Positions 2,780 through 19,649 of a stretch of 64,000 nt of DNA are shown one piece after another; the first letter of the stretch is position 1; the number at the start of each line of letters is the position of its first letter. The notes under the pieces were generated by a model that saw nothing but the letters and a program-made list of their open reading frames with translations, was not told the origin of the DNA and ran no database searches. Position numbers and translations under genes: made by a program. Source of the stretch: Corallococcus macrosporus DSM 14697 (GTDB lineage: Bacteria; Myxococcota; Myxococcia; Myxococcales; Myxococcaceae); assembly GCF_002305895.1 (NCBI RefSeq), contig NZ_CP022203.1:6234001-6298000 (forward strand), in the 5' to 3' direction.

Positions 2780-3567
2780 GCGGCAGCGTCACTCTTCGTG
2801 GACTAAAAGGCCCACAGACTCGGCACGACTTCTCACACCAAATCCACAATTGCCCAAATCCCAAAGGAAACCCCATGGAACGGTGCTTTGTCATACAGCC
2901 ATTCGATCGAGGCAAGTTCGACAAGCGATATGGGGATACCTATGAGCCTGCCATTAAAGCTTCTGGGCTACTCCCCTACCGAGTCGACCGCGACCCCTAT
3001 GTCACAATCCCCATAGAAGAAATTGAAAAGAACATCCGGGAGAGCCGGGTCTGCCTTGCCGACATAACAACCGACAATCCAAATGTCTGGTACGAAGTAG
3101 GATTCGCAATAGCATCACGAAAAGACGTCGTCCTGATCTGCTCCTCGGAAAGGGAAGGCAAGTTCCCGTTCGACATCCAGCACCGCTTAGTCCTGAAATA
3201 CGGCACGGACTCCGCAAGCGACTGGACGCAACTAAAAGAATCAATCACAGATCGACTACGCGCCATCCTAACGCTTCAAGCCAAAACCGAAACCATCGCA
3301 GAAATGTCTCCAGTCCGTACAACCGAAGGACTGACTCCACACGAAATCGCGGCACTGGTCGTCGTAGCCGAATCGTGCCTGATGCTCGACGCCAGTATTT
3401 CTGATTGGCGTTTCAAGCAAGGAATGAACAACGCGGGGTTCACAGATTTAGCAGCCAGCGTAAGTCTAAGATGCTTAGACCGAAAGCAGCTTGTCACCTG
3501 CAAAAGAGATGAGGATGAAAACGGAGCCCCCTTCATCCGAATTTCTTTGACCAAAGCAGGGGAATCT

Positions 3568-5121
3568 GGGTGTGGCTCCCATACTGATCATGCTGCGCGC
3601 CGTACCTCGGCCCTCTGCGGCGCAAGCGTGAGGTTCATGGCCGCGTCCCACCGTTCCGAGAGCACCAGGGCGCGCAAGTCCAGGATGTGCTGGCCGGACG
3701 CCTCCCTCCAGCGGGCGCCAGGGCGCTTCATGCGCAGGGAGACGAGAGACTTGCAGGTAGCCTCCACGTTGCCGCTGCCAATGGGAAGTCCCCGTGCGCG
3801 CGCCTCGGCATAGTGCATTCGCTCGCCGTGGTTCTCCAGGTAGGTGAGGGCCTCGTGCACCGGTTTGCCGTCACCGAGGACGACATGCCGCTTGCCGCTG
3901 GCGTGCAACGCCATGGCAATGGCCCACGCCGCCCCGGGCGTGTTGAGCAGGGACAGCTTCCATTTCTCACGCAGCGCGGAGGCCGTCTCTTCTCCAGCCA
4001 CCACGCGAGCCGCAGCCCCGAGCTTCTCCATCAGGTGCCAGAAGTCCACCAGACGCACCGGCTTCTTGGCCGCCGGGGCATGGGTGGCCAGCGCCTCGTC
4101 CAGCAAGGCGTGCAACTCAGGGGCACCGTCGGTGAGGACGGCGACGTACAGGCCGCGCCGCCTGGAAACCAGGGCCTGGACGTCGCGGGCCAGGCGTTCT
4201 GCCACCTCTCGGGCCTCGCCCCGTGGCATCCGTCCGTAGCGGATGGTGCCCAGGGCTTCGCCGTGGGCATCATGGAAGGTGAGGCAGGCGGCGTAGGCCA
4301 TGCGCCAGACGACGTCCACCGGGCGCGTGGGGGCGCCCTTGCGAGGGCGGCCCACCGGCCGCTTCTTCGGCTCCTCCATCGGCACGGCCACCCTGTCCAT
4401 GCTGACGCTCACGCCGCGGGTGCCTCGGGGCACTCGCATCTCCTGGGCCAGCACCACCTCCACCCGAGACCGCTGGCCGCCGTACAGCGCTCCCACCTCA
4501 TGCCCCACCCGCTCGAACGAGGCTCGGCAGTAGGGCAGCACGCCCATCTGGCGCGCCGTCGCTTCCGCCTCTCTCGAGGTCCCCCGGGCCAGCAGGTACG
4601 CCATGGGCACTGCCGCCTCGGGCATCCACCCATCGGCCACGCACCCAGCGCGCAGGCTGACGGTGTCCACCGTGGGCCCGTTTCTCACCCCTACCTGTCG
4701 ATAGAGGCTTCGCTCTACTTCGACAGGCCCTTGCCGCGTCTTGTACGTCGCCGTGTACCGGCCGACCCGGGAGTGGAGCTGGCCTGCGAGTTGGAGACGG
4801 GGGGCGTCGACGTCGTAGCCTTGAAGCAACCTCCGCTTCGCATCGCACTGCAACGCCGCGGCCGCCTCATCAATGGCCTTCAACGCGCCTTCCGGGTCCA
4901 CTTCCCCGAAGCTTTTCCCCGCCGCGCCCTCCTGCCGCAGCTTCGCCTCCATGACTTTGAGCAACTTCGCGACTTCCTCGGGTACCTCAAGCATCACCTT
5001 CGACACGCGCACACCTCCGTCGAGATAACCCACCCGAAGGCTCGCACCTTGCCGATGAACAGGCTCGCGACCGCTCGATGGCTTGTTAGCTCACCCAGCG
5101 CTCAGGATCGGATCCAGACCC
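3568..5121 (-). mobile_element. ISKra4-family insertion sequence with 8-bp target duplication
   Basis: A 1554-bp element. Its ends are imperfect inverted repeats: GGGTGTGGCTCCCATACTGA on the left against GGGTCTGGATCCGATCCTGA read inward from the right. The 8-base direct repeat GGGAATCT flanks it at 3560-3567 and 5122-5129. It holds one transposase gene on the minus strand. Removing it together with one repeat copy restores the host gene in frame, which fixes the boundaries to the base. Confidence 0.9.
3588..5006 (-). CDS. ISKra4-family transposase
   Basis: A DDE transposase of 472 residues from the GTG at 5006, chosen because GGAGG lies 7 bases upstream; the frame itself is open further up to 5033. 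The three acidic positions can be read as SMDRVAVP, VLTDGAPELH and GSGNVEATCKSL. The last segment, with RMKRPGARWR following, is typical of the ISKra4 group. The gene runs nearly to the left end of the element, stopping 20 bases inside it. It appears intact, so the element may still be mobile. Confidence 0.9.
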   Translation of the reverse strand: MSKVMLEVPEEVAKLLKVMEAKLRQEGAAGKSFGEVDPEGALKAIDEAAAALQCDAKRRLLQGYDVDAPRLQLAGQLHSRVGRYTATYKTRQGPVEVERSLYRQVGVRNGPTVDTVSLRAGCVADGWMPEAAVPMAYLLARGTSREAEATARQMGVLPYCRASFERVGHEVGALYGGQRSRVEVVLAQEMRVPRGTRGVSVSMDRVAVPMEEPKKRPVGRPRKGAPTRPVDVVWRMAYAACLTFHDAHGEALGTIRYGRMPRGEAREVAERLARDVQALVSRRRGLYVAVLTDGAPELHALLDEALATHAPAAKKPVRLVDFWHLMEKLGAAARVVAGEETASALREKWKLSLLNTPGAAWAIAMALHASGKRHVVLGDGKPVHEALTYLENHGERMHYAEARARGLPIGSGNVEATCKSLVSLRMKRPGARWREASGQHILDLRALVLSERWDAAMNLTLAPQRAEVRRAA

Positions 5122-5339
5122 GGGAATCTTGGCTCATCGACAATCAGTCCAAATTCGACATGAAACTCACCCGCCCCCCCAACACCCACTCGGCGGACGA
5201 CGAGATTCCCTTCTAATTCGAGCAGCAATAGGCTTAAACCAAGGATCGTGATTCTCGAACGGCTCCCCCCTCTCTGCCAACGTGAGTGAGACAGTTCGTA
5301 CCCGGCAGTTTAGTGTGCAGGGCGACCCAGGCAGGGACG

Positions 5340-5747
5340 ATGAGCGCAGTGATGGAAGAGGCTCGGGTCAGGGAGACCGAGGTGGTGGAGAAGGCCAGGC
5401 GCCGAGGTTTCACGGCGGAGTACAAGCTGCGGGTGCTGGCGGAGGCAGAGCGCTGCACGAAGCCCGGTGAAGTCGGAGCGCTGCTGCGCCGGGAAGGACT
5501 GTACTCGTCGCTGCTGAGCGCGTGGCGGCGCCAGCGCGATGCCGGAGAGCTGTCGGCCAACAGCCCGAAGAAGCGCGGCCCGCCGGCGAAGGTGCCCGAC
5601 ACGAGCGCCCGGCGCGTGGCCGAGCTGGAGAAGCAGCTGGCCCAGGCCCAGGTGCGCCTCAAGCGCGCCGAGGCGCTGCTGGACCTCCAAAAAAAAGTTT
5701 CGGAAATCCTGGGCGTGGAACTGCCCAAGCCCGACGAGGAGCCCTGA
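5340..5747 (+). CDS. IS3-family transposase OrfA (helix-turn-helix subunit)
   Basis: A 135-residue protein from the ATG at 5340, preceded by GGCAGGGACG. It has the basic helix-turn-helix region typical of OrfA (FTAEYKLRVLAEAERC, then LLRREGLYSSLLSAWRRQ) and a C-terminal leucine-zipper-like coiled coil (ARRVAELEKQLAQAQVRLKR). A run of eight A residues at 5689-5696 followed by G lies inside the coding region and would allow a -1 ribosomal slip into the orfB frame. The stop TGA at 5745 overlaps the orfB ATG at 5747. Confidence 0.88.
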   Translation: MSAVMEEARVRETEVVEKARRRGFTAEYKLRVLAEAERCTKPGEVGALLRREGLYSSLLSAWRRQRDAGELSANSPKKRGPPAKVPDTSARRVAELEKQLAQAQVRLKRAEALLDLQKKVSEILGVELPKPDEEP

Positions 5748-6751
5748 TGGCCGTGGCGCTGGAGGCCGTCGACGCCCTGGGCGTGGCGCCGGTGTGCAAG
5801 GCCCTGGGCCTGCCGCGCGCCACCTTCTACCGGCAGGCCCAGCCCCGACACGGGCCGGTGCACAGGCCCAGCCCACCCAGGGCTCTCCCGCCGGAGCAAC
5901 GGGCCGAGGTGCTCTCGGTGCTGCACGAGCCGAGATTCGTGGATGCCGCGCCCGCGGAAGTCTACGCGCAGCTCCTCGATGAGGGCCGCTACCTGTGCTC
6001 GGAGCGCACCATGTACCGGGTGCTCGCTGAGAATCAGCAGGTGCGCGAGCGCCGCGACCAGCTGCGCCACCCCAACCACCCGGCGCCCCAGTTGCACGCG
6101 ACGAAGCCCAATGAACTCTGGAGCTGGGACATAACGAAGCTGCACGGCCCGTCGAAGTGGACGTACTTCTACCTCTACGTCGTCCTGGACGTCTTCAGCC
6201 GCTACGTCGTCGGGTGGATGGTGGCCCACCGCGAGTCGGCCACCCTGGCCAAGAAGCTGTTGGCGGCAACCTGCGAGCGCCAGGGCGTGGCGCCCGGCCA
6301 GTTGACGATTCACGCCGACCGAGGCTCCTCCATGACGTCCAAGCCGGTGGCCTTGCTGATGGCCGACCTGGGTGTGACGAAGACGCACTCGCGGCCCTAC
6401 GTCTCCAACGACAACCCCTTCAGCGAGGCCCACTTCAAGACGATGAAGTACCAGCCCGACTTTCCCGAAGGCTTCGGCTGCCTCCAGGACGCTCGCGGCC
6501 ACTGCGGTGACTTCTTCGGCTGGTACAACAACGAGCACCACCACGGTGGCCTCGGCCTGCTGACGCCCTATGACGTGCACCACGGCCTGGCTGCCGAGCG
6601 TCTCGCGGCCCGGCGCGCGGTGCTCGCCGCGGCCTACGCCGCTCACCCCGAGCGCTTCCCTCGCGGTGCACCCACGCCGAAGGCCCCGCCCACCATCGTC
6701 TGGATAAACGACCCCGCTCGGCGCTCCTCCTCACTGGAGGCTGCTCAGTAA
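5747..6751 (+). CDS. IS3-family transposase OrfB (DDE integrase-core)
   Basis: A 334-residue rve-type integrase core. The acidic triad is seen as WSWDITKLHG, HADRGSSMTSKPV and NDNPFSEAHFKTMKYQP, with the D-D-35-E spacing and the trailing Lys expected of the family. The HTH_21-like N-terminal region includes YAQLLDEGRYLCSERTMYRVL. The frame is -1 relative to orfA and is open across the A-run upstream, so an OrfAB fusion by frameshift is likely as in other IS3 members; translation from its own ATG, which overlaps the orfA stop, would give OrfB alone. It appears intact. Confidence 0.92.
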   Translation: MAVALEAVDALGVAPVCKALGLPRATFYRQAQPRHGPVHRPSPPRALPPEQRAEVLSVLHEPRFVDAAPAEVYAQLLDEGRYLCSERTMYRVLAENQQVRERRDQLRHPNHPAPQLHATKPNELWSWDITKLHGPSKWTYFYLYVVLDVFSRYVVGWMVAHRESATLAKKLLAATCERQGVAPGQLTIHADRGSSMTSKPVALLMADLGVTKTHSRPYVSNDNPFSEAHFKTMKYQPDFPEGFGCLQDARGHCGDFFGWYNNEHHHGGLGLLTPYDVHHGLAAERLAARRAVLAAAYAAHPERFPRGAPTPKAPPTIVWINDPARRSSSLEAAQ

Positions 6752-6874
6752 TTTCTCGAACTCACTGTCTCACTTGCGTTGACAGGTTCCGCGGGCCGCG
6801 AGCGCTCGGGGCCCCTCCGCCACCGCACCGAGTGGGAGCGCGCCGAACAGCTGCCGCGCCCCAAGCTGCCGCGC

Positions 6875-7237
6875 TCACCTGGCCATCGAGCGCCAGCCGC
6901 GGGCGGCGTCCCCCAGGCGCGTCCAGTCGCTCGTCCGCCGTCGCACCTCGTCCGCCCTCAGGCCGCACAGGGTCCACAGCGCCAGCGCGAAGGCAATCGC
7001 CTCCCCGCTGAAGTGCTTACGTGGAGAGACGGACGGCGGCACCACGCGCATCACCGCGCCACAGGGATGGCAGCGGTAGCGGCGACAGAGCACCTCCCGG
7101 CATTCCGGCGCCCCGTCCGGAGTCGGCGGGTTGCGCTGCTGGCGCTCGACGAGCCCATGCCCATGGAGGCCCAGCCCACCGCCTTCGTAGGCCCCGCGCC
7201 CACACGCCACGCAGCGCTTCGGCCGGCCCTCGTCCAC
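6875..7237 (-). pseudogene. Truncated zinc-ribbon protein (DUF6431-like, probably transposon-derived)
   Basis: The frame reads MDEGRPKRCVACGRG..., then RYRCHPCGAVMRVVP, giving two CxxC pairs that would form a zinc ribbon, followed by a hydrophobic helix (GEAIAFALALWTLCGL) and ADEVRRRTSDW. Proteins like this (I recall DUF6431) are common in myxobacterial mobile-element debris and normally continue into a helix-turn-helix segment. Here the frame stops soon after GWRSMAR, about 90 bases from the IS3 element, so the C-terminal part is missing. The same frame stays open upstream of the GTG at 7237 (VVRFEGDVKNWPPS), so the true start is uncertain. The family assignment is from memory. Confidence 0.5.
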
Positions 7238-7633
7238 CGAGGGCGGCCAGTTCTTGACGTCGCCCTCGAAACGGACGACTCCTCGGGTGTCCCGGTTCTC
7301 TTTCCGCAGGGTTCCCGGGGCCCGCGTGGAGGGTGTTCCCGCACCCTCTGCGCACCTTTCTCCCCGTCCTCCTGACCGCCTGCTACCTCATCGGGCGTGG
7401 CGCTCCAGTTTCTCGCTGACGATGGGCGAGCGGCGTGACCCCATCACGCAGCCGGCTCGAACTCGGGCCGCGAGCCCTCATCCAGGGTGCTCGTCAACAG
7501 GATCCGAGCGCATTGAGGCGTACGACCACCACAACTGAGTCATGGGTTGTCAGAAGAGGGAATGAGCGGCGGAGGCCTAGGCGGGCAGGCCCTAGTTGCA
7601 TCGGCCGAGACCCGCCCCACTCATGAAGCAGGG
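7238..7633. other. Non-coding or decayed stretch between two element remnants
   Basis: No convincing gene is seen. The left part is the upstream extension of the zinc-ribbon frame. From about 7577 the sequence resembles the stretch near 23045 and belongs to the leader of an IS701-like remnant. GC-rich throughout; no promoter or hairpin stands out. Confidence 0.5.
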
Positions 7634-7801
7634 ATGGACTGCTTCATGAACGCCGCTGCGGTGCAGCCACTTGAAAGATGCTTTCAGCAAATCGGCGAGG
7701 AGGGCCAGCGAAGAGCGTTCGCCCTCAACGCGCTGGGCCTGATGGGAAGGAAGCGCGCAAAATCATGGAGCCCACCGCAACCCAGGCAAGTCCAGACCTA
7801 A
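7634..7801 (+). pseudogene. Remnant of an IS701-type transposase N-terminus, frameshifted
   Basis: The frame starts MDCFMNAAAVQPLERCFQQIGEE and continues RAFALNALGLMG, matching the start of IS4/IS701-type transposases (the RLERYxxxIGEVLG ... YALGLL pattern, from family knowledge). After GLMG the homology shifts to the next frame (KEARKIMEPTATQA, matching a typical RKSMEPIAARA), so a frameshift is present, and the catalytic part is absent. The adjoining leader (7577 onward) is a diverged copy of the sequence at 23045-23160. The remnant ends immediately before the SIR2-like gene. Confidence 0.6.
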
Positions 7802-9721
7802 AGCGGCTGAACTGAGCGCATTTGTGCAGAGGGAACGTCATGATGAAACCAGACTGGAGGTGGGTCGCGCCGCGACTCGCTTCGCTCTACCACCGAGGTC
7901 TTCTAGTCCCCTTCATCGGCGCGGGATTGTCACGCCCAGCGTGCCCAGGCTGGGGGGGGTTAATCACGCGACTGGAAGCCGCCGCAGCCACCGGCGCGGG
8001 CACCGGGGAAGACCCCCTTTCCCTCATCCGTCGCGCGAACAAGACGGTCCTCGCGCTCCGCCATCGCGGACAGGGCGCGCTCGAGAAAGCCGTCCGCGAG
8101 GCGCTCACCACGACTCCCGTGACGATCCCGGAGAGCGCCACATGCCTTGCGGACATCTGGTGGCCGCTAGTCATCACCACCAACTACGACAACCTCTATC
8201 CCTCCAGCGTTTCCTCAAGGTGGAAGATTCGACCGCTCGTGCTCGGACGATCCCCCATGCATTGCTTCCAGGTGGGCCGTGTCCTGCGTGAGCCCCTTGC
8301 CCCAGCGCTTTGGGCCATCCAGGGATATCTGGACACGCCGTGCGATGAACATTTCGATTTCCAAAACCAGTTGGCATCGGAGCTGGTCGTGGGCCACGAG
8401 GAGTACCGTCGGGTGACGCATCGGGAGCCGCATTTCCGGCGCGCCTTCGCAGAGATATACCGTAACAGGAGCCTGTTGTTCGTAGGCTCAGGGCTGCAGG
8501 ATCAGTATCTCCTCGATCTCTTCTCCGAGATCCGCGAGTTTTATGGTCCTAACGGTCACTTGCACTTCGCATTCGCCCCCGAGGGCGAATTGGACGTGGA
8601 CTTTCTCCTGCGCGAATTTCAGGTTGCCGTTGTCGAGTATTCAGTGCCCAGCAATAATCCGACGGACCACTCGAATCGCCATCGGCATCTGCGAGAACTC
8701 AAGCATGCCATCGATGTTGCTCCATCGCCCAGCCGCTGGGATTACCAAGTCGCCCGTCCATCCAGAGACAGCGTCGCATGTTTCTCGGTAGAGCACTGAG
8801 CCGTCCCCTCATTCGAATCAAATGAAGCCGAATGCCTCGCGGAAGACGGCCTGCTCGCGGATGAGTTCGGCGAATTTCTCCATGAGGGGGCGGAGCCACT
8901 CCTCTCGCATGTTGGCGAGGGCGCCGTAGTAGATGATGCCTTGCCGAAAGAGAGAGTACTCGCGCGTCTTACGGGTGTCGGCGCGGAACTTCCTGTCGAG
9001 CCCCGTCGCTTCGCCCGCAGCGCCGAGCAGCGTCAGCAGTGCCATGGCGAAGGCGGACAGCAGCAACAGTCTGTCGCGGCGCTCACAGGTGCCGATAGCG
9101 ATGGCGGACAGGCCCATGCCGAAGCGCAAGTCCTTGATGTCCCGGTGCGTCTCCTCGCAGGTGAAGCGACGTCCGTAGGCCTTCACCAACTCGGTGGCAG
9201 TGGCTTCCTTGCTGCTGGCCGCCAGAAACCAGGCCTCTTTCATTCCCTTCTGGTGCACGCAGACGACGGCACCCACGCCGAAACGGGCCTGGGTGACGCG
9301 CGCTCCGCGCAGCAACTTCGGACGGCCCGTCGGGGGCACCCACTCCTTCGCCTTGTGCACCTCCCCTCCGGCACTTTCGACGTGCACGACGCCACGAAAG
9401 CGAATGACGTAGCCGAAGCTGAGTCTGTCCAGCAATTCATACAGGGCGACGTCTCCGAATCCTCGGTCCGCGAGCACCGTCACCTCCACGTCGGAGGGCA
9501 GCACCTGGTGCAACCGCTCCAGCAACGCGTCCTCATGGGCATTGCGCTGCCCGGCCAACTCGCTCTTGGGCACCGTCTTCCACAGCAACGGCGTGGCGCG
9601 GCCGTGGCGGGTGACAAGCTGGATGGCGACCGTGGTGTGGTCGTCCGACTCGAAGTCCGTCCGTATCCGCTGCACGAGCCCCGTCTGGAGGGGATGAGCC
9701 GGAGCGCGCAAGGTGGCGCGC

Positions 9722-10057
9722 ATGGCGAATGCGGAGCTGTGGAAGAAGCGAGTGGAGGAGTGGCGCACCAGTGGGCTGAGCGCGGAGGAGTACTGCCGTG
9801 GGAAGGAGTTCACGCCCAGCCCGCTGTACCGGTGGTCGAGTCGGCTGGCGAAGGCGGGGCGTGGAGAAGCGGAGGCGGCGGTGCCGCTGGTGAGGCTGGT
9901 TACTTCCCCGGCCCGCGAGGAAGCCGCACCTGGTGCAGGACTCGTCGTCATTGAGGCGCACGGGGCGCGGGTGCTGGTGCCCGCGGGGGCGGACGTGGCG
10001 ACGGTAGGCGTGGCGCTGGCGGCGCTGGGTACGGCGAGCCGGGGCGGGCCGCGATGA
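9722..10057 (+). CDS. tnpA: IS66 accessory protein TnpA (helix-turn-helix)
   Basis: A 111-residue protein from the ATG at 9722 (AAGG lies 8 bases upstream; a GTG at 9713 is an alternative). The N-terminal segment KKRVEEWRTSGLSAEEYCRGKEF followed by LYRWSSRL is the helix-turn-helix seen in IS66 first-frame proteins. The C-terminal part is low-complexity (Ala/Gly/Val). Its stop overlaps the tnpB start by 4 bases (ATGA), implying coupled translation. Confidence 0.85.
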   Translation: MANAELWKKRVEEWRTSGLSAEEYCRGKEFTPSPLYRWSSRLAKAGRGEAEAAVPLVRLVTSPAREEAAPGAGLVVIEAHGARVLVPAGADVATVGVALAALGTASRGGPR

Positions 10058-10395
10058 TTCCGCACGGCGTCGAAATCTTCCTGGGCCTGGAGCCGATTGA
10101 CTTGCGCTGGGGCTTCGAGCGGCTGTCTGGGTTGGTGGAGGAGAGGCTGGGACGCAAGCCTCGCAGCGGCGCCCTCTTCGTCTTCTTCGGCAAGCGGCGC
10201 ACGGCGCTGAAGGTACTCTTCTACGACGGCACGGGGCTGTGCCTCTTCTACAAGCGGCTGGACACCGGCTGCTTCCAGGTGCCGCGAGGGTTGGAGGAAG
10301 GCGCTACCAGCCTGGCGGTGGAGGAGCACGTGCTGGAGGAGTTGCTGGACGGGCTGCGCGTGGAGGCGCCCAGGCGGGGCCCTCGCCCACATTGA
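10054..10395 (+). CDS. tnpB: IS66 accessory protein TnpB (IS66 Orf2-like)
   Basis: A 113-residue protein with the family's opening MIPHGVEIFLGLEPIDLR and the conserved GALFVFFGKRRTALKVLFYDGTG segment. IS66 elements need this protein, but its biochemical role is not settled. It overlaps tnpA by 4 bases and is followed 35 bases later by tnpC. Confidence 0.92.
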   Translation: MIPHGVEIFLGLEPIDLRWGFERLSGLVEERLGRKPRSGALFVFFGKRRTALKVLFYDGTGLCLFYKRLDTGCFQVPRGLEEGATSLAVEEHVLEELLDGLRVEAPRRGPRPH

Positions 10396-10430
10396 GAGGA
10401 GCCAGGCGCACCACCGCGCGGGGGCACCAG

Positions 10431-12170
10431 GTGGGTGTCGACAGCGCGGTGGTGAGTGGTTACAAGGCCGCGGTGTCCACGCACGAGTCTCCCATTTCCG
10501 CGCAGGCGCGCATCGCCGAGCTCGAGGCGCTGTTGAGCGCCGAGAGGCAGCGCGCCGCGCAGTTGGAGAGGGAGCGGGACGTGCTGAAAGCCTCGCACGA
10601 GAGGCTGCGGCTGGAGTTGGAGTTACTCAAGCGCCGCCTCTTCATGGCCAAGGCGGAGCGGGTGGACACCCAGCAGTTGGAGTTGGAATTCGCCCAGAAG
10701 CTGCGCGCCCTGGAAGAGGTGGCCGGCACACTGGGCATGGCCTCGGCGGAGGCGTCAGGCGGCGCGGGGGCGAAGCAGAAGTCCAAGCCCAAGGGCCGGC
10801 GGGACTTGAAGAGTCTGCCGCTGGAAGAGAGGCGGGTGGTGATTGCGGACCCTCTCTTCGACGAGCTGGTGGCCCAGGGGAAGGCGGAGAAAATCGGCTT
10901 CGAGGAGAGCTGCAAGCTGGCCTGGCAGCGCGGCGGTATGCGGCGCCTCGTCATCGCCCGGGTGAAGTACCGCACGGTGGGGGCCGACGGGGAGGCCACG
11001 CTGGCCTCGGCCATGGCGCCCAAGGAAGTCTTCTTCCGCTGCCTGGCGGCGCCCTCGCTGCTGGCCCACCTGGCCACCGAGAAGTACTGCGACGGGCTGC
11101 CGTTGTTCCGCATGGAGAAGCGCCTGGCCCGCGACGGCGTGGCGGTGGACAGGGGGACGATGGCGCGGTGGCTGGAGGACATGGGCGCCACCCTGGGCAC
11201 CACCGTGGTGGCCGCCATGCGCGAGGAGGCGCTGGCCACCGCCTTCTGCATCGCCACCGACGCCACGGGCGTGGCGGTGCAGCCGGCCCCCGCCGAGGGG
11301 CCTCGCCAGGCGTGCCGACGCGGCCACTACTTCGTCCAGGTAGTCGACAGGGACGCCGTCTTCTTCGAGTACACGCCGAAGGAGACGAGCGCCGCGGTGC
11401 TGGAGCTCTTCAAGGGCTTCAAGGGCTACGTGCAGGCCGACGCCAAGAGCGTCTACAACGCCCTCTTCCGTCCCGCCGAGGACGCGCCCGCTGACGGCGA
11501 GGAGGGGGTGTGTCAGGAGGTGGCGTGCTGGGCGCACTGCCGCCGGGGCTTCTGGGAGGCGGCGACGGCCAAGGACGTCATCGCCAGGGAGGGGCTGGCG
11601 CGCATCAGTCGCCTCTTCCAGTTGGAAGCGACATGGAGGGACAAGCCCCCGGAGGAGATTCACCGGCTGAGGCATGCCCACCTGCGTGCGCACGTGGACG
11701 CCTTCTTCGTCTGGGCCCAGGAGGAGTACGAGAAGGTGCGGGAGCAGCGCGGCCTCTTGCGCCGGGCCCTCGGCTACGCCGTGCGCCAGCGCGAGGCGCT
11801 GCGCTGCTTCCTCGACGACGGACGGCTGCTGCTTGAGAACAACCGCTCCGAGAGAGAATTGAGAAGGATTGCCGTCGGACGCAAGGCCTGGCTCTTCGTC
11901 GGGAGCGATGACCATGCCGAGCGCGCCGGCCACCTCTTCACCCTCATCGCCACCGCGCGACTGCACGGACTCGAGCCCGAGACCTACCTGCGCGACATCC
12001 TGCGCGTGCTGGCCCACTGGCCCCACCAGCGCTACCTCGAGCTCGCTCCCAAGTACTGGGCCGCTACGCGCGCTCGCCTCCTCCCCTCCGAACTCGACGC
12101 CGAGGTGGGCGAACTCACCGTCCCGGCGCCGGTTGCGGCCTCGCCCGAAGAGCAGTCGTCGCCGCGCTGA
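10431..12170 (+). CDS. tnpC: IS66-family transposase TnpC
   Basis: A 579-residue protein from the GTG at 10431; the frame is open further upstream but overlaps tnpB there, and GTG at 10452 is another candidate. Residues about 20-90 form a coiled coil (ARIAELEALLSAERQ...). The DDE core is visible as ATDATGVAV, YVQADAKSVYN and LLENNRSERELRRI, and the C-terminal IS66 segment (YLRDILRVLAHWP) closes the protein. No CxxC zinc-binding motif is apparent in the linker. It appears intact. Confidence 0.92.
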   Translation: MGVDSAVVSGYKAAVSTHESPISAQARIAELEALLSAERQRAAQLERERDVLKASHERLRLELELLKRRLFMAKAERVDTQQLELEFAQKLRALEEVAGTLGMASAEASGGAGAKQKSKPKGRRDLKSLPLEERRVVIADPLFDELVAQGKAEKIGFEESCKLAWQRGGMRRLVIARVKYRTVGADGEATLASAMAPKEVFFRCLAAPSLLAHLATEKYCDGLPLFRMEKRLARDGVAVDRGTMARWLEDMGATLGTTVVAAMREEALATAFCIATDATGVAVQPAPAEGPRQACRRGHYFVQVVDRDAVFFEYTPKETSAAVLELFKGFKGYVQADAKSVYNALFRPAEDAPADGEEGVCQEVACWAHCRRGFWEAATAKDVIAREGLARISRLFQLEATWRDKPPEEIHRLRHAHLRAHVDAFFVWAQEEYEKVREQRGLLRRALGYAVRQREALRCFLDDGRLLLENNRSERELRRIAVGRKAWLFVGSDDHAERAGHLFTLIATARLHGLEPETYLRDILRVLAHWPHQRYLELAPKYWAATRARLLPSELDAEVGELTVPAPVAASPEEQSSPR

Positions 12171-12865
12171 AAGCGTCCCATTCACGCCGCCAGCATGCGG
12201 CGTCCGTCCGGCCTACGGAAGACGGGGCTCGTGCAGCGCATACGTCCGTCCAGTCAATGGTGACTGTCACCGCTTTGCGCTCGGCCACCACGAAGGGCAC
12301 CCACTGCGCGAACAGTCGCCACACGTCGACGCCAGAGTTGGACAGCAGTCGGTCCACCTGCTTGATGGCGTGCTTGCCTTCCAACCCCCGCGCCTGGGAG
12401 AGCGCCAGTCCGATGGCCCTCACCGAGAGGCTGGCGGCGTGCACGGCGCCCAAGGTGGCATTGGACAGCGACAGCACACGCTTGGCATGGGTGTCCGGGC
12501 CGACGGCTTCCTCAATGAACCGATGCACCTCGGCGTGCGTTATGGATTTCGACATGCTCCGCACGATGCAGGACAACCTCTGGCGCCGAAAAGCGCGCGC
12601 CTCACTGCCGCTTCCCGCGCTGCTCCGGCACCAGCCAACCGCTGGGGACGGCCCTTGACGCTCGGCTCAAATGAGGGGACGACTCAGGGTAGAGCAGTCA
12701 CCCCTGCCCAATAGTCTGGAGGCACGGGGCTGCTTGGCGGTGAGCGCTGGTGGTGAGTTGAGTCACGGGCTCCTGTATCTCAGCCCTACCATCCAGGCAC
12801 TCGTTGCCAGCTACGCGCCCGATGGCACCTACAGAAGGTTGCCGGGGCGGCATGTAGCCCGCTAC

Positions 12866-14307
12866 CATCCGCGTCCGTTTAACGCGGTGAGGAAAAGCAG
12901 AGCAGAATCAGAGAGATAGGTGCAGCCGAGCAGGCAGGGCCCGTCGAAACGGAGGGACGAGGACCATTCTCCCGGCATGAAGAATACTCCGAGAGCGAAG
13001 GTGGCTGAGGGACTCCGGGCACTGGTGTCGGCCGAGGACATTCTGGAGGCGGCGCGGCGGTTGGGTGCGTTGCAGCGCCAGCGCAAGGTGGACCTGGTGG
13101 CGCTGGTGGAGTCCACCGTGGCCGCGGTGACGCCGCTGCCCGGCACGCAGACAACGGCCTTCGCCAACTACATCGCGCTCACCGGACAGAAGCTGTCACC
13201 CAGCGCCTTCTTCGAGCGCTTCAACCACGCCTTTGGGCTGTTGATGTGTGAGGTGGCCGGCCGGGCCGTGCAGGCCGTGCGCGAGGCCATCGGCGAGGAC
13301 AAGCCCTTCAATGAACTGGGAGCCTTGCTGGAAGAATTCTCAGACGTGCAGGTGGCCGACTCCACCTGCCAACTGCTGCGGCGACTGGCGGCTGACTGGG
13401 CCCCCTCCACCAGCCAGGCACGGCCAGCGTCCTTCAAATGGCACGCGCTGGTATCGCTGCGAGACGAGTTGCCGGTGGCGGACGGAGTGACGCCCCAGCG
13501 CACCCAGGACACGCGCGCATTGCCCGAAGAGGCGCTGGCGCCCGGCACGCTCACCTTCATGGACTTGGGGTACACAGACACCGGCCGCTTCCTTGATGCG
13601 ATTGAGGCCGGAGCCCATTTCCTGGTGCGGCTGAAGGCCCAGCATGACCCGAAGGTGCTGCGGGTGCACGTGGGCAAGGGCGAGCGCGTGCGGGCCCGGG
13701 GCATGCGCCTGACGGATGCGCTACTGCAGGGCGTGCTGCGTGAGGAGGGCGGCGTCATCGACGTGGACGTGCAACTGGAGAAGCAGGGGCGCACGGCCTC
13801 GGCGCGGGTGGTGGCCGTGCAAGGGCCAGAGGGTGAGCGGCGCTGGTATCTGACGACGGTAGGCCGCGACGTGTTGACAGCCCTGGAGGTGGCCGAGGCC
13901 TACCGTCTGCGCTGGAGGGTGGAACTTCTCTTCAAAGCCCTCAAATCCGGTGTGGGACTGACGGCGCTGCGCGCCACGCGGCCTGGCGCGGTGCTCTCGT
14001 TGGTGTACGCCAAGGTGATTGCCCTGGCCCTCTCGCGCCTGCTGGAACTGTCGATGCAGCAGAAGGCAGGCGAGTCGGGTCAGCAGCATGCGACGGGGCG
14101 GCTCGCGCTGGTGCTGGCGTTGACCCGCTGCGCCCCACTGCTGCTGTCGCATGCGATGATGAGCCGGGGCGTAACCCTGGAGCAATTGGAGGAGCGCATC
14201 CTCCTCATCGCGGAGGTGACCGCTCGTTCACGCCAGCAGCGCCGCGAGCGTGAACGACGCAAGCGGGAGGCTTCCCTCGGGAGCGGCCGCTAAACCGGAA
14301 GCGGATG
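12866..14307 (+). mobile_element. IS4-type insertion sequence B
   Basis: A 1442-bp element that begins CATCCGCGTCCGTTTAACGC and ends in GCGGATG; the right end read inward is CATCCGCTTCCGGTTTAGC. The 10-base target duplication AGCCCGCTAC is at 12856-12865 and 14308-14317, inside the SIR2 gene. It is a different element from IS4-type A: the termini and transposase are unrelated at sequence level. Confidence 0.9.
12977..14293 (+). CDS. IS4-family transposase of element B
   Basis: A 438-residue protein from the ATG at 12977; the open frame extends to a GTG at 12920 but the upstream part lacks features. The acidic residues are in VQVADSTC and FMDLGYTDTGRF, and the IS4 signature Y-x2-R-x3-E-x6-K is complete in YRLRWRVELLFKALK. 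The C-terminus is strongly basic (QQRRERERRKREA). It appears intact, so this copy may be mobile. Confidence 0.92.
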   Translation: MKNTPRAKVAEGLRALVSAEDILEAARRLGALQRQRKVDLVALVESTVAAVTPLPGTQTTAFANYIALTGQKLSPSAFFERFNHAFGLLMCEVAGRAVQAVREAIGEDKPFNELGALLEEFSDVQVADSTCQLLRRLAADWAPSTSQARPASFKWHALVSLRDELPVADGVTPQRTQDTRALPEEALAPGTLTFMDLGYTDTGRFLDAIEAGAHFLVRLKAQHDPKVLRVHVGKGERVRARGMRLTDALLQGVLREEGGVIDVDVQLEKQGRTASARVVAVQGPEGERRWYLTTVGRDVLTALEVAEAYRLRWRVELLFKALKSGVGLTALRATRPGAVLSLVYAKVIALALSRLLELSMQQKAGESGQQHATGRLALVLALTRCAPLLLSHAMMSRGVTLEQLEERILLIAEVTARSRQQRRERERRKREASLGSGR

Positions 14308-15378
14308 AGCCCGCTACAGCGGCCGTCCCATCTTCGCCGTCGTTGCGCGGGAAGGAAGACCTTCCGCCAGGAAACTCGCGATTGATGGGGAGCGCACCCT
14401 GGCAGCGGTGTACTGGGCGACGCGGGAACTCTTGGTTCACGTACAGCAAGCCGGATTCACCACATTGCATGCCCAGTTGTTCGCCAGCGGCCCGGACTTG
14501 CATGGCAACGATGCGCTACCGCCCTTCCGACCAGTTCACGCACTGGCCGAAATGGCCAGCGCATTTGGCGACTCTGTGCGCGCCACAAGGTCGGCAGGCG
14601 ACCTCCGCATGGTAGTTCATGTAGTAGACCCAAGCGTCTATGCCGAGTTGCGCAGGGGACGCTTCTACCTGCCCGAGTTCCTAGGCTGCGAGGACTTGCG
14701 CATCTGGGTTTCCATTGAGATGGAGGGTGGACCGCCTAGTTACCACCACCTCCATATCCCGGCGTTTGAGTTCTCGGGATCCCATCCCTCCACGACGGGG
14801 TCGCCCGTCCGCATCAAGGACGTTGCTCAGCTGTTCCACGGTCGTGTCCCTATAAGTGTGTAGATGGTGATGAGGGACGAGCGGGAAAGAGGGAAGCTCC
14901 TCGGTGAAACCAACCGAGACGGTCTCCCCCTGGCAGGGGAGCCGAGGAGTTCCCTGACGTGGACGATACCGAGTTCGAATCCCCCGCGCACGAAGAGGTG
15001 CAGGCCGACCTGCGGGCGCTGTTTCGAGGCGCCATTCGGATGACGCTGGAGGCGCTGCTGGAGGAAGAGGTCCGGGAGTTGGTGGGGGCTGGCCGGTGGC
15101 AGCGGATGGTGGGCCGGGCGGACGTGCGCAACGGCAGCTACCTGCGCACGTTGGTGACGACGGCGGGGGCCGTGGACGTGGCGGTGCCGCGCACCCGGCA
15201 CAGCGGCAGCGCGGGGGACGTGCTGGGCTGTCGTAGCTCGGCGTAACAGGTCCTCCGGAGTTCGGCGAACCCGGTCGGGGTGAGTTCGGCCAAACCGGTC
15301 CGCACCGGTTCGGCCAAACCGGTCCCCCGGGCCTCGTGCCGACAGGCCACGCTGGCTTCCCAAGGAAAGGGAAGTGGC

Positions 15379-16968
15379 GTGAGTAACCGGAGAGTGGAGA
15401 TGGACCGGCTGCAGGAATTGGTGCGGTTGCACCGCCTGGGCACACCCGCGCGGCAAGTGGCCCGGGTGCTGCGAATGGGCGTGGACGTGGAGCGCAACTA
15501 CCGCCGCGTGCTGGAGGCGGCGGGGCTGCTGCGGGGCGATGTGCAGGTGCTGCCCGAACTCGAGGTGCTCAAGGCCGCGGTGCTGGTGGCGCGGCCCGCG
15601 GCCCCGCCAGCGCCTCAGCAGACGTCCAGCCTGGAGGCGCACCGAGCCCAAGTGGAATCGTGGGTGGCCAAAGGCCTGCAGCCGCAGGCCATCTTCACCC
15701 GGCTGCAGATGGAGGCAGGGGTGCCGGTAGGCAGCCTCTCGGCCGTCAAACGCCTGGTGGGCAGCGTGCGTCGGGCGCAGGGCGTGAGTGAAGAGGACGT
15801 CGCCATCCCCGTGGAGACGGCCCCGGGCGAGGTGGCGCAGGTGGACTTCGGTGAAGTGGGCCGGCTGTACGACGCGGACACGGGGACGCTGCGGCGCGCC
15901 TGGGTGTTCGTCATGGTGCTCGGCTACAGCCGCCACCTCTTCGCCACGCTGGTGTTCGACCAGCGCGTGGAGACGTGGCTGCGCTGCCACGAGGCCGCCT
16001 TCGCGTACTTCGGCGGGGTGCCCCGCTGCGTGGTGCCCGACAACCTCAAGGCGGCGGTGGTACGCGCGGCCTTCGGGGTGGACGGGGAGAGGGCCCTGCA
16101 ACGCAGCTACCGCGCGCTGGCGCGTCACTACGGCTTCATCGTCGACCCGGCCCCACCTCGCGCCCCCGAGAAGAAGGGCAAGGTGGAGGCGGGCGTGCGC
16201 TATGTGAAGGGCAACTTCTTCGCCGGGCGGGCCGGGGAGGACGCGCGCGAGTGCGAGGCCGCCCTGCAGCGCTGGCTGCGGGACGTGGCGTCGGTGCGCG
16301 TGCACGGCACGACGGGGCGCCAGCCGCGCCTCCTCTTCCAGCAGGCCGAGGCCGCGGCGCTGCGTGCGCTGCCGGCGGCCGCGTGGGCGCCCGAGGTGTG
16401 GCACGAGGCCCGCGTGCACAGAGACGCCCACGTCATGTACGGCCGACGGCTGTACTCGGTGCCCTGGCGCCTCATCGGCCAGCGCGTCTGGCTGTGCGTC
16501 ACCGCCCACGACGTGCGCGTGTACGCCCAGGACGAGCGCGTGGCCACCCACCCGCTGCGCGGCGAGGGCCACCGCAGCACCGTGGAGGCCCACCTGCCCG
16601 AGGCGCGCGCGGCCCTGCGCCACCGCAGTCGCGGCCACTGGGAGGCGCGGGCGGCCCGGCTGGGCCCTCACACCGAGGCGTACGTGCGCGCCGTCTTCGA
16701 CGCCGATGACGTCCTCAGCCAGCTGCGCTGCGTGCAGGCCATGGTGGTGCACCTGGAGGGCTTCCCGCGAGAGCGGGCCGATGCCGCGTGCCGCCGGGCG
16801 CTGCACTTCGGCAACCTGCGCTACCAGGGCCTCAAGGACATCCTGCGCCGAGGCCTGGACTTGCAGCCGTTGCCCCAGGACGGGCACCTGGCCATCGCCA
16901 CGCCCGCCGCCACTGCTGCGCCGCCGGCTCCCCGCTACGCGCGCGACGTGCGCACGCTGCTGCGTTAG
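15379..16968 (+). CDS. istA: IS21-family transposase IstA
   Basis: A 529-residue protein from the GTG at 15379, chosen because AAGGAAAGGGAAG precedes it; the frame opens at 15280 within the terminal repeats. It has an N-terminal helix-turn-helix (RLHRLGTPARQVARVLRMG) and an integrase-type DDE core: AQVDFGEVG, CVVPDNLKAAVV and GKVEAGVRYVKGNFF. The C-terminal region matches the length of the family. It is intact, and istB starts 53 bases downstream. Confidence 0.93.
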   Translation: MSNRRVEMDRLQELVRLHRLGTPARQVARVLRMGVDVERNYRRVLEAAGLLRGDVQVLPELEVLKAAVLVARPAAPPAPQQTSSLEAHRAQVESWVAKGLQPQAIFTRLQMEAGVPVGSLSAVKRLVGSVRRAQGVSEEDVAIPVETAPGEVAQVDFGEVGRLYDADTGTLRRAWVFVMVLGYSRHLFATLVFDQRVETWLRCHEAAFAYFGGVPRCVVPDNLKAAVVRAAFGVDGERALQRSYRALARHYGFIVDPAPPRAPEKKGKVEAGVRYVKGNFFAGRAGEDARECEAALQRWLRDVASVRVHGTTGRQPRLLFQQAEAAALRALPAAAWAPEVWHEARVHRDAHVMYGRRLYSVPWRLIGQRVWLCVTAHDVRVYAQDERVATHPLRGEGHRSTVEAHLPEARAALRHRSRGHWEARAARLGPHTEAYVRAVFDADDVLSQLRCVQAMVVHLEGFPRERADAACRRALHFGNLRYQGLKDILRRGLDLQPLPQDGHLAIATPAATAAPPAPRYARDVRTLLR

Positions 16969-17200
16969 CGCCCCCCTCGCTGTCCCCGCAGTCCCACCCC
17001 GCTCAAGGAGTGTCCCCCCGCATGAGTACCTATGACGAGCTCGTCCCCGTGCTGAAGAAGCTGCGCCTGTCCGGGCTGCTGCAGTCCCTCGAGGTGCGCT
17101 GCCGGGAGGCGGCCGACGCCAACTTGTGTATGCGCTGCACGAGCCCCGTCTTCCGTAGGCCGGACGGACGCCGCATGCTGGCGGCGTGAATGGGACGCTT

Positions 17201-18940
17201 TCAGCGCGGCGACGACTGCTCTTCGGGCGAGGCCGCAACCGGCGCCGGGACGGTGAGTTCGCCCACCTCGGCGTCGAGTTCGGAGGGGAGGAGGCGAGCG
17301 CGCGTAGCGGCCCAGTACTTGGGAGCGAGCTCGAGGTAGCGCTGGTGGGGCCAGTGGGCCAGCACGCGCAGGATGTCGCGCAGGTAGGTCTCGGGCTCGA
17401 GTCCGTGCAGTCGCGCGGTGGCGATGAGGGTGAAGAGGTGGCCGGCGCGCTCGGCATGGTCATCGCTCCCGACGAAGAGCCAGGCCTTGCGTCCGACGGC
17501 AATCCTTCTCAATTCTCTCTCGGAGCGGTTGTTCTCAAGCAGCAGCCGTCCGTCGTCGAGGAAGCAGCGCAGCGCCTCGCGCTGGCGCACGGCGTAGCCG
17601 AGGGCCCGGCGCAAGAGGCCGCGCTGCTCCCGCACCTTCTCGTACTCCTCCTGGGCCCAGACGAAGAAGGCGTCCACGTGCGCACGCAGGTGGGCATGCC
17701 TCAGCCGGTGAATCTCCTCCGGGGGCTTGTCCCTCCATGTCGCTTCCAACTGGAAGAGGCGACTGATGCGCGCCAGCCCCTCCCTGGCGATGACGTCCTT
17801 GGCCGTCGCCGCCTCCCAGAAGCCCCGGCGGCAGTGCGCCCAGCACGCCACCTCCTGACACACCCCCTCCTCGCCGTCAGCGGGCGCGTCCTCGGCGGGA
17901 CGGAAGAGGGCGTTGTAGACGCTCTTGGCGTCGGCCTGCACGTAGCCCTTGAAACCCTTGAAGAGCTCCAGCACCGCGGCGCTCGTCTCCTTCGGCGTGT
18001 ACTCGAAGAAGACGGCGTCCCTGTCGACTACCTGGACGAAGTAGTGGCCGCGTCGGCACGCCTGACGCGGCCCCTCGGTGGGGGCCGGCTGCACCGCCAC
18101 GCCCGTGGCGTCGGTGGCGATGCAGAAGGCGGTGGCCAGGGCCTCCTCGCGCATGGCGGCCACCACTGTGGTGCCCAGGGTGGCGCCCATGTCCTCCAGC
18201 CACCGCGCCATCGTCCCCCTGTCCACCGCCACGCCGTCGCGGGCCAGGCGCTTCTCCATGCGGAACAACGGCAGCCCGTCGCAGTACTTCTCGGTGGCCA
18301 GGTGGGCCAGCAGCGAGGGCGCCGCCAGGCAGCGGAAGAAGACTTCCTTGGGCGCCATGGCCGAGGCCAGCGTGGCCTCCCCGTCGGCCCCCACCGTGCG
18401 GTACTTCACCCGGGCGATGACGAGGCGCCGCATACCGCCGCGCTGCCAGGCCAGCTTGCAGCTCTCCTCGAAGCCGATTTTCTCCGCCTTCCCCTGGGCC
18501 ACCAGCTCGTCGAAGAGAGGGTCCGCAATCACCACCCGCCTCTCTTCCAGCGGCAGACTCTTCAAGTCCCGCCGGCCCTTGGGCTTGGACTTCTGCTTCG
18601 CCCCCGCGCCGCCTGACGCCTCCGCCGAGGCCATGCCCAGTGTGCCGGCCACCTCTTCCAGGGCGCGCAGCTTCTGGGCGAATTCCAACTCCAACTGCTG
18701 GGTGTCCACCCGCTCCGCCTTGGCCATGAAGAGGCGGCGCTTGAGTAACTCCAACTCCAGCCGCAGCCTCTCGTGCGAGGCTTTCAGCACGTCCCGCTCC
18801 CTCTCCAACTGCGCGGCGCGCTGCCTCTCGGCGCTCAACAGCGCCTCGAGCTCGGCGATGCGCGCCTGCGCGGAAATGGGAGACTCGTGCGTGGACACCG
18901 CGGCCTTGTAACCACTCACCACCGCGCTGTCGACACCCAC
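17201..18940 (-). CDS. tnpC: IS66-family transposase TnpC, copy B
   Basis: The same 579-residue transposase as in copy A, with the DDE segments ATDATGVAV, YVQADAKSVYN and ENNRSERELRRI intact. At least one substitution (Ala to Thr in the VQPAP.EG loop) separates the two copies. The start (GTG at 18940) is set by correspondence with copy A. Confidence 0.92.
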   Translation of the reverse strand: MGVDSAVVSGYKAAVSTHESPISAQARIAELEALLSAERQRAAQLERERDVLKASHERLRLELELLKRRLFMAKAERVDTQQLELEFAQKLRALEEVAGTLGMASAEASGGAGAKQKSKPKGRRDLKSLPLEERRVVIADPLFDELVAQGKAEKIGFEESCKLAWQRGGMRRLVIARVKYRTVGADGEATLASAMAPKEVFFRCLAAPSLLAHLATEKYCDGLPLFRMEKRLARDGVAVDRGTMARWLEDMGATLGTTVVAAMREEALATAFCIATDATGVAVQPAPTEGPRQACRRGHYFVQVVDRDAVFFEYTPKETSAAVLELFKGFKGYVQADAKSVYNALFRPAEDAPADGEEGVCQEVACWAHCRRGFWEAATAKDVIAREGLARISRLFQLEATWRDKPPEEIHRLRHAHLRAHVDAFFVWAQEEYEKVREQRGLLRRALGYAVRQREALRCFLDDGRLLLENNRSERELRRIAVGRKAWLFVGSDDHAERAGHLFTLIATARLHGLEPETYLRDILRVLAHWPHQRYLELAPKYWAATRARLLPSELDAEVGELTVPAPVAASPEEQSSPR

Positions 18941-18975
18941 CTGGTGCCCCCGCGCGGTGGTGCGCCTGGCTCCTC

Positions 18976-19317
18976 TCAATGTGGGCGAGGGCCGCGCCTG
19001 GGCGCCTCCACGCGCAGCCCGTCCAGCAACTCCTCCAGCACGTGCTCCTCCACCGCCAGGCTGGTAGCGCCTTCCTCCAACCCTCGCGGCACCTGGAAGC
19101 AGCCGGTGTCCAGCCGCTTGTAGAAGAGGCACAGCCCCGTGCCGTCGTAGAAGAGTACCTTCAGCGCCGTGCGCCGCTTGCCGAAGAAGACGAAGAGGGC
19201 GCCGCTGCGAGGCTTGCGTCCCAGCCTCTCCTCCACCAACCCAGACAGCCGCTCGAAGCCCCAGCGCAAGTCAATCGGCTCCAGGCCCAGGAAGATTTCG
19301 ACGCCGTGCGGAATCAT
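18976..19317 (-). CDS. tnpB: IS66 accessory protein TnpB, copy B
   Basis: Identical 113-residue product to copy A (MIPHGVEIFLGLEPIDLR...). It overlaps the upstream tnpA copy by 4 bases, preserving the coupled arrangement. Confidence 0.92.
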   Translation of the reverse strand: MIPHGVEIFLGLEPIDLRWGFERLSGLVEERLGRKPRSGALFVFFGKRRTALKVLFYDGTGLCLFYKRLDTGCFQVPRGLEEGATSLAVEEHVLEELLDGLRVEAPRRGPRPH

Positions 19318-19649
19318 CGCGGCCCGCCCCGGCTCGCCGTACCCAGCGCCGCCAGCGCCACGCCTACCGTCGCCACGTCCGCCCCCGCGGGCACCAGCAC
19401 CCGCGCCCCGTGCGCCTCAATGACGACGAGTCCTGCACCAGGTGCGGCTTCCTCGCGGGCCGGGGAAGTAACCAGCCTCACCAGCGGCACCGCCGCCTCC
19501 GCTTCTCCACGCCCCGCCTTCGCCAGCCGACTCGACCACCGGTACAGCGGGCTGGGCGTGAACTCCTTCCCACGGCAGTACTCCTCCGCGCTCAGCCCAC
19601 TGGTGCGCCACTCCTCCACTCGCTTCTTCCACAGCTCCGCATTCGCCAT
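19314..19649 (-). CDS. tnpA: IS66 accessory protein TnpA, copy B
   Basis: The same 111-residue helix-turn-helix protein as in copy A, with no difference seen in the translated product. First gene of the element, with its start near the right inverted repeat. Confidence 0.85.
   Translation of the reverse strand: MANAELWKKRVEEWRTSGLSAEEYCRGKEFTPSPLYRWSSRLAKAGRGEAEAAVPLVRLVTSPAREEAAPGAGLVVIEAHGARVLVPAGADVATVGVALAALGTASRGGPR

Follow-up and report, generated by a model that had tools for sequence, protein, structure and literature searches.

Comparison across more than 10 phyla indicates that a mobile family of bacterial proteins, met here as a gene split by an insertion element, ends in a tail that appears to imitate the C-terminal docking peptide of its host's own SSB, a reading that is well supported by the way the tip changes from host to host. 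Its members begin with an N-glycosidase fold of the DNPH1/NDT/TIR type, continue with a MarR-type winged helix and a flexible linker, and finish in an SSB-Ct-like tip; their genes are solitary, mobile and accessory. The SSB C-terminal tip is the hub through which the proteins of replication, recombination and repair gather on single-stranded DNA. Specifically, the free C-terminal Phe and the acidic residues of the SSB-Ct (DDDIPF) dock in basic pockets of DnaG, ExoI, PriA, RecO, Pol III chi and others (PMC5872125, PMC10164576).

The window, that is the whole stretch of 64,000 nucleotides analysed here, covers positions 6234001-6298000 of an 8.97-Mb single-contig genome, the gene content of which we take to be that of a myxobacterium. 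Within it, an insertion element of 1554 bp (3568-5121) lies between two plus-strand copies of GGGAATCT (3560-3567 and 5122-5129), a target-site duplication that occurs exactly twice on the plus strand of the window, each time directly abutting the element. Imperfect inverted repeats mark the two ends of the element (GGGTGTGGCTCC / GGGTCTGGATCC), and its single gene, on the minus strand (3588-5033), encodes a 481-residue transposase scoring 242.7 bits (7.9e-72) against NF033572, above the curated cut-off of 205. Two near-identical copies and one 88% copy occur elsewhere in the same genome, and 8-bp duplications also flank both other full copies (GGAGGGGC and GTAGGAAG). The transposase score, the terminal repeats and the 8-bp duplications at three copies together place the element in the ISKra4 family, as a sequence-only reading of this DNA had proposed.

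When the flanks are joined across the empty site, they form the 259-codon frame that the same reading had predicted (231 and 28 residues plus a stop, with 29 codons past the element). The 5' part of the disrupted gene (2875-3567, plus strand) encodes residues 1-231, which, judged by the joined frame, PF05014 and a homologue model, comprise the NDT/DNPH1/TIR-like domain (about residues 1-131, with the Glu74 codon at 3094-3096) and the larger part of the winged helix. The 3' part (5130-5216, plus strand) encodes residues 232-259 and the stop in the joined frame, and homologues reach the same end. About 9-10 of these 28 residues complete the last helix of the winged helix (WLIDNQSKF), and the remainder form a variable linker and the tip DDEIPF (5196-5213, plus strand), recognized by comparison with the host SSB end DDDIPF. 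The earlier suggestion that the codons beyond the element continue the winged-helix end therefore holds for the first stretch but not for the linker and tip. Element and duplication together measure 1562 bp, which leaves a remainder of 2 modulo 3, so that the insertion shifts the frame, and the present ORF (2875-3813) reads through 231 gene residues into 81 element-encoded ones. Because the cut falls inside the last winged-helix helix, the window's copy has lost the end of that helix, the linker and the tip; with these removed and the ORF running into the element, it is probably dead and unable to dock. The tip finding thereby explains what the insertion destroyed, namely the putative docking end of the protein.

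The suspicion of horizontal transfer, first raised by codon use, is strengthened by composition and comparison alike. The split gene has a GC content of 51% (GC3 0.55), while the neighbouring nrdB reaches 65% (GC3 0.96) and the window as a whole 69%; no full-length homologue was found in the other 95 genomes of the host's taxonomic family, and synteny with relatives ends 4 nt past the nrdB stop codon. Comparison with relatives delimits a strain-specific, IS-rich island from 2785 to 21200, the right border being approximate, with similarity returning at about 21.2-23.9 kb. The sequence after nrdB varies among 26 genus relatives, and the region looks like an insertion hot spot. Most of the island consists of IS elements (ISKra4, IS3-type, IS66-like, DDE_Tnp_1, IstB/IS21). 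It also holds a SIR2_2-domain protein (7822-8799, plus strand) directly followed by transposase remnants, which PADLOC scores as LmuA-like (3e-13) and ThsA-like and which is possibly a truncated defence effector. Additionally, the first domain alone has a distant paralogue, matching at about 32% over residues 4-99 within ORFs mostly of 350-460 residues, that occurs about once in most genomes of the host family (for example at G000:C1:3673512-3673796); the mobile family is thus accompanied by a core gene of NDT/TIR-like type.

Searching 85,000 species genomes with the joined protein returned 251 relatives, the best 80 of which (L026-L105) were analysed. Most of these best 80 match residues 1-259, past the insertion point to the last residue, at 36-56% identity. 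Since homologues align through the break, the view of the joined frame as a chance reading was rejected, and so was the view that homologues stop before the insertion. The phyla represented among the best 80 include Bacteroidota, Pseudomonadota, Acidobacteriota, Bacillota, Planctomycetota, Chloroflexota, Cyanobacteriota, Latescibacterota, Fibrobacterota, Ignavibacteriota and others. The alignment sample comprises 75 intact homologues, and counts of the tip are made on 76 proteins, these and the window's joined reading. Full-length members were found neither among PLSDB plasmids nor among GenBank phages nor, in a DNA-level search, in E. coli genomes, and NCBIfam holds no model for the family. 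Frame-broken copies occur in other species (L050, L062, L067 and L084), as may be expected of a costly accessory gene, and some of them may be assembly errors; L067 and L084 retain the tip in a different reading frame.

The first domain was assigned on structural and profile grounds. In an AlphaFold2 model of the homologue L053 (mean pLDDT 88.4), residues 1-134 form a Rossmann-like domain whose nearest structural neighbour is human DNPH1 (Z 15.8, rmsd 2.2 Å over 125 residues), followed by MilB (Z 14.2) and by TIR domains including SPARTA TIR-APAZ (Z about 14); Foldseek was also run. Matches of the DNPH1/MilB/BcmB/NDT type span Z 13.5-15.8, with the nucleotide hydrolases MilB and BcmB among the best neighbours. 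A profile search against PDB sequences returned Rcl/DNPH1 at E 0.007 and the MarR-type regulator TcaR at 2e-4. PF05014 matches all 75 homologues at E<=0.1 (best 2.7e-7), with the window's own copy at 0.0026, under the Pfam gathering score; TIR_2/CAP12-TIR matches appear in only 4-5 of the 75. The nearest defence profile in PADLOC is the CBASS TIR effector (1e-7 to 1e-10), and PADLOC gave partial matches to TIR-effector models but no full-length match to a known antiphage component. Glu74 is invariant in 75 of 75 homologues, lies in a DNPNxWYExG motif that is itself invariant or nearly so, and aligns with the YELG Glu of Rcl. The near-invariant acidic residue E51 stands one position off the second catalytic acid of NDT/DNPH1 enzymes (~24 positions upstream of the Glu). 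The assignment to an NDT/TIR-like domain with a retained Glu74, made from the window alone, is thus borne out across the family.

The second domain, when modelled by itself, comes out as a winged helix of MarR/Sar type (Z about 11), in agreement with the domain order first proposed. A second look at the PDB was headed by MarR-, Sar- and PadR-like winged-helix regulators and similar folds and by no other family, which does not prove that none exists. The domain may serve for regulation or nucleic-acid sensing, as first suggested. In both AlphaFold2 models (L053 and the winged helix alone) the linker and tail have low pLDDT and are presumably disordered, and Pfam scans found no match to PF00436, the SSB OB fold, in the family proteins.

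It is the extreme C-terminus that sets the family apart. The final residue is F in 70 of the 76 members, and 64 of 76 end in PF, preceded by Ile, Leu or Val and then by two or three acidic residues, giving the form DD(E/D)(I/L/V)PF. Entropy is 0.58 bits at position -1, 0.87 at -2 and 2.0-2.9 at -3 to -6, and it reaches 3.5-3.8 bits in the linker at -7 to -22. With only the last six residues conserved, behind a variable linker, the idea that the tail is a mere winged-helix end was rejected; an acidic stretch followed by hydrophobic-Pro-Phe at a free C-terminus, after a flexible linker, is what characterizes an SSB-Ct-type peptide. The tip is missing from a few members (L040, L090) or altered at its end (L070 and L075, with a final W), so that it is not strictly essential. 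A similar end occurs in an OLD-family ATPase/TOPRIM nuclease encoded near the family gene of L031 (7139-8866, minus strand), which terminates in ILDDDLPF. Of three distant relatives of this nuclease (31-32% identical), two end in KEEDTLPF and GEDVDLPF; L237, the third, is without an SSB-like tip, and a viral-contig scan found no relatives of the nuclease.

The tip follows the host. Host SSB genes were taken as PF00436 matches in the same genomes and their C-terminal ends were compared with those of the family proteins; where a genome held several, the best-scoring copy ending in PF was taken, blind to the match. The I/L/V residue of the tip is the same in the family protein and the host SSB in 47 of 54 usable pairs, against a shuffled mean of 22 of 54 (41%; p<=5e-5). 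When shuffling was confined within Proteobacteria, Bacteroidota and the rest, the observed agreement of 87% still exceeded the expected 68% (p<=5e-5), and the rest alone gave p<=5e-5. Agreement can extend well beyond one residue: in L097 the family tail and the host SSB tail are both FSQGITDDDVPF, a 12-residue identity, and in L103 the family tail IPPYAADDDLPF shares 11 of 12 residues with the SSB tail PPPYAADDDLPF. L093 pairs GGFEEMDDSIPF with GGFDEMDDDIPF, L081 pairs VDDSLPFN with IDEELPFN, the extra N being common to both, L028 has DDDVPF in both proteins, and the window sets DDEIPF beside DDDIPF.

A tree-based test considered the 25 members for which the closest or near-closest relative belongs to a host whose SSB tip is different. 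In 22 of these 25 the tip goes with the host, a count in which reciprocal pairs such as L028/L031 enter from both sides and are not independent, and in 17 of the 22 the relative's tip differs, which makes these cases discriminating. In one case, L054, the tip goes with the relative; this Synechococcus copy is 88% identical to a Gallionella copy, which marks a recent transfer. The within-group permutation and the nearest-relative test led us to reject phylum ancestry as the only source of the agreement; shared ancestry accounts for part of it, and both tests argue against it as the whole cause. Recent copying of ssb tails at the DNA level was likewise rejected as a general cause, since codons differ: L103 shares 11 of 12 residues with its ssb but only 4 of 12 codons, which points to selection at the protein level. 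In L097, 8 of 12 codons are identical, and this tail may be an old capture of an ssb end. Host matching of this kind would give what sequence alone seldom offers, an indication of the partner pocket in the host on which selection acts. Both the host-matched tip and the adjacency to ribonucleotide reductase (RNR) genes described below had been missed by the sequence-only reading, and the tip is the decisive feature.

In the window the family gene lies 95 bp behind nrdB, on the same strand, downstream of nrdA (ORF 38-1693, its frame start near the window edge) and nrdB (1769-2779), which together span 38-2779 on the plus strand. The same arrangement, directly 3' of RNR genes on the same strand at about 4-101 bp, recurs in L029, L057, L060, L090 and L096, that is in 6 of 81 loci with the window included, and in different phyla. 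By rough estimate, based on about three RNR genes per several thousand, chance would give well under one case in 81. An alternative reading of the adjacency is an insertion hot spot after nrdB, given that the sequence there is variable in the genus and that in the window the gene is part of a strain-specific island. Across the 81 loci there is no conserved partner gene, and no neighbour is shared by more than a few. Mobile and conflict-related neighbours include cytosine (5mC) methylases, DRT/AbiP2 reverse transcriptases, AbiH, integrases, RhuM, PIN domains and restriction genes, with defence genes a minority of all neighbours. In Mu-like phages the family gene is cargo between the tail-completion and head-protease genes, as checked in L226 and L228; the cargo loci L226, L228 and L229 lie around 6001-6780, and the L229 protein is a close relative of that of L228. 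Another phage carries the gene divergently in its tail-fibre region. Among the near-full-length viral copies, 7 of 8 end in IPF or VPF after at least one Asp.

The data are compatible with a model, to which we would give slightly better than even chances, in which the family is an accessory N-glycosidase, probably anti-phage, that imitates SSB and thereby docks on the SSB-interacting machinery of its host. The tip would occupy the SSB-Ct pockets of host exonuclease I, RecJ, PriA, RecO, primase, Pol III chi and the like, which would bring the enzyme to forks and to single-stranded DNA. Once a phage hijacks replication or mishandles single-stranded DNA, the N-glycosidase would cleave a nucleotide (dNMP/dNTP or NAD+), and infection would stop; a location behind RNR genes would couple expression to dNTP supply. 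Binding to SSB-interacting proteins is indirectly supported by the host matching, the first domain is expected to cleave the N-glycosidic bond of a nucleotide or of NAD+, and the purpose is probably defence. The main rival, which we consider unlikely, is housekeeping at the fork in step with RNR: a DNPH1-like enzyme recruited by its tip would hydrolyse damaged or modified dNMPs from proofreading and resection, and co-expression with RNR would keep the dNTP pool clean. The best structural neighbours, the dNMP hydrolases DNPH1/Rcl and the nucleotide hydrolases MilB/BcmB, favour such a role, as does the release of dNMPs by the SSB partners ExoI and RecJ, and the RNR-adjacent loci in different phyla fit it equally well. 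A distribution that is patchy and mobile and extends to phage cargo genes, the 75 of 81 loci not beside RNR, and the lack of a full-length copy in the other searched genomes of the host family all speak against it.

The tip could also act in cis, held in the protein's own winged-helix or enzyme pocket so that the enzyme stays off until free host or phage SSB tails displace it, which would make the protein a sensor of single-stranded DNA and SSB. Many defence systems do respond to phage SSB (PMC13381803, PMC10732053), and fair competition with the host SSB would need a host-matched tip. We nevertheless regard this arrangement as rather improbable: the tail has low confidence in two models, one of them of the winged helix alone, although AlphaFold2 is weak evidence here, and the tip changes with the host SSB and not with the closest relative's tip, which points to a host partner. 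The resemblance of the winged helix to MarR/Sar/PadR regulators, together with the RNR neighbourhood, would suit a transcription regulator that binds an operator, uses a degenerate first domain as nucleotide sensor and controls nearby genes such as nrdAB. Such a regulator would, however, have no constant neighbour to regulate, it leaves the tip unexplained, and its active-site-type residues, Glu74 included, are invariant; we hold it to be very improbable. That the acidic PF end has nothing to do with SSB and arose by chance, or serves as a degron or solubility tail, is hardly credible. The motif is indeed short, the SSB-Ct being only six residues long, but the host matching holds also within groups, L081 shares its LPFN extension and L097 twelve residues with the host SSB, and about five of some 1170 other long ORFs of the same loci end in PF.

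The preferred reading, docking by SSB imitation, has a possible wider form, which we put forward tentatively and at somewhat less than even chances: a portable SSB-Ct mimic would serve bacterial conflict proteins in general as a docking module and, after transfer, be adjusted to the SSB of the new host, with the OLD-type nucleases (L031/L235, L236, L238) as a second class. If so, effectors that cleave nucleotides or act as nucleases would find landing sites on the SSB-interacting proteins of the host. The docking reading would describe a new route by which an enzyme of defence, competition or housekeeping, present in various phyla and borne by phages, reaches the replication machinery.

Taken singly, neither the fold nor the tip is new, but the literature and family libraries searched contain no description of their combination or of the host tracking. 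A literature search for NDT/TIR proteins with SSB tips or for SSB mimics returned nothing relevant except Deinococcus DdrB, and the literature searched held no report of a defence system wearing an SSB tip. DdrB differs from the family in being a single-stranded-DNA-annealing protein, the motif of which is reported to be dispensable for radioresistance. The family resembles DNPH1/Rcl, MilB/BcmB and the nucleoside 2'-deoxyribosyltransferases (PF05014) in the fold of its first domain, in its Pfam match and in the Glu at the catalytic position, but it has an additional winged helix, linker and SSB tip, a different N-terminal loop (CFVIQPFD), and an upstream catalytic Asp that is not clearly conserved in register. 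With the TIR effectors of Thoeris, CBASS and SPARTA it shares, by structural comparison, a probable superfamily fold, as well as a match to the CBASS TIR-effector profile and a mobile setting; unlike them, it comes without a partner sensor gene (ThsA/B, CD-NTase or pAgo) and has the SSB-Ct tip instead. Its likeness to the bacterial SSB-Ct (DDDIPF; PMC5872125, PMC10164576) lies in the sequence, in the position at the extreme C-terminus after a flexible linker and in the residue-level match to the host, whereas it lacks the OB fold of SSB and has an enzyme-type rather than a single-stranded-DNA-binding body. Finally, phage SSB is known to trigger the defence systems Hna, AbpAB, Retron-Eco8, Nhi and Hachiman (PMC13381803, PMC10732053), so that a coupling of SSB and defence has precedent; the family shares with these systems the link between SSB and antiphage activity that its proposed role would imply, but where they sense the SSB of the phage, it wears a tip like the SSB of its host.
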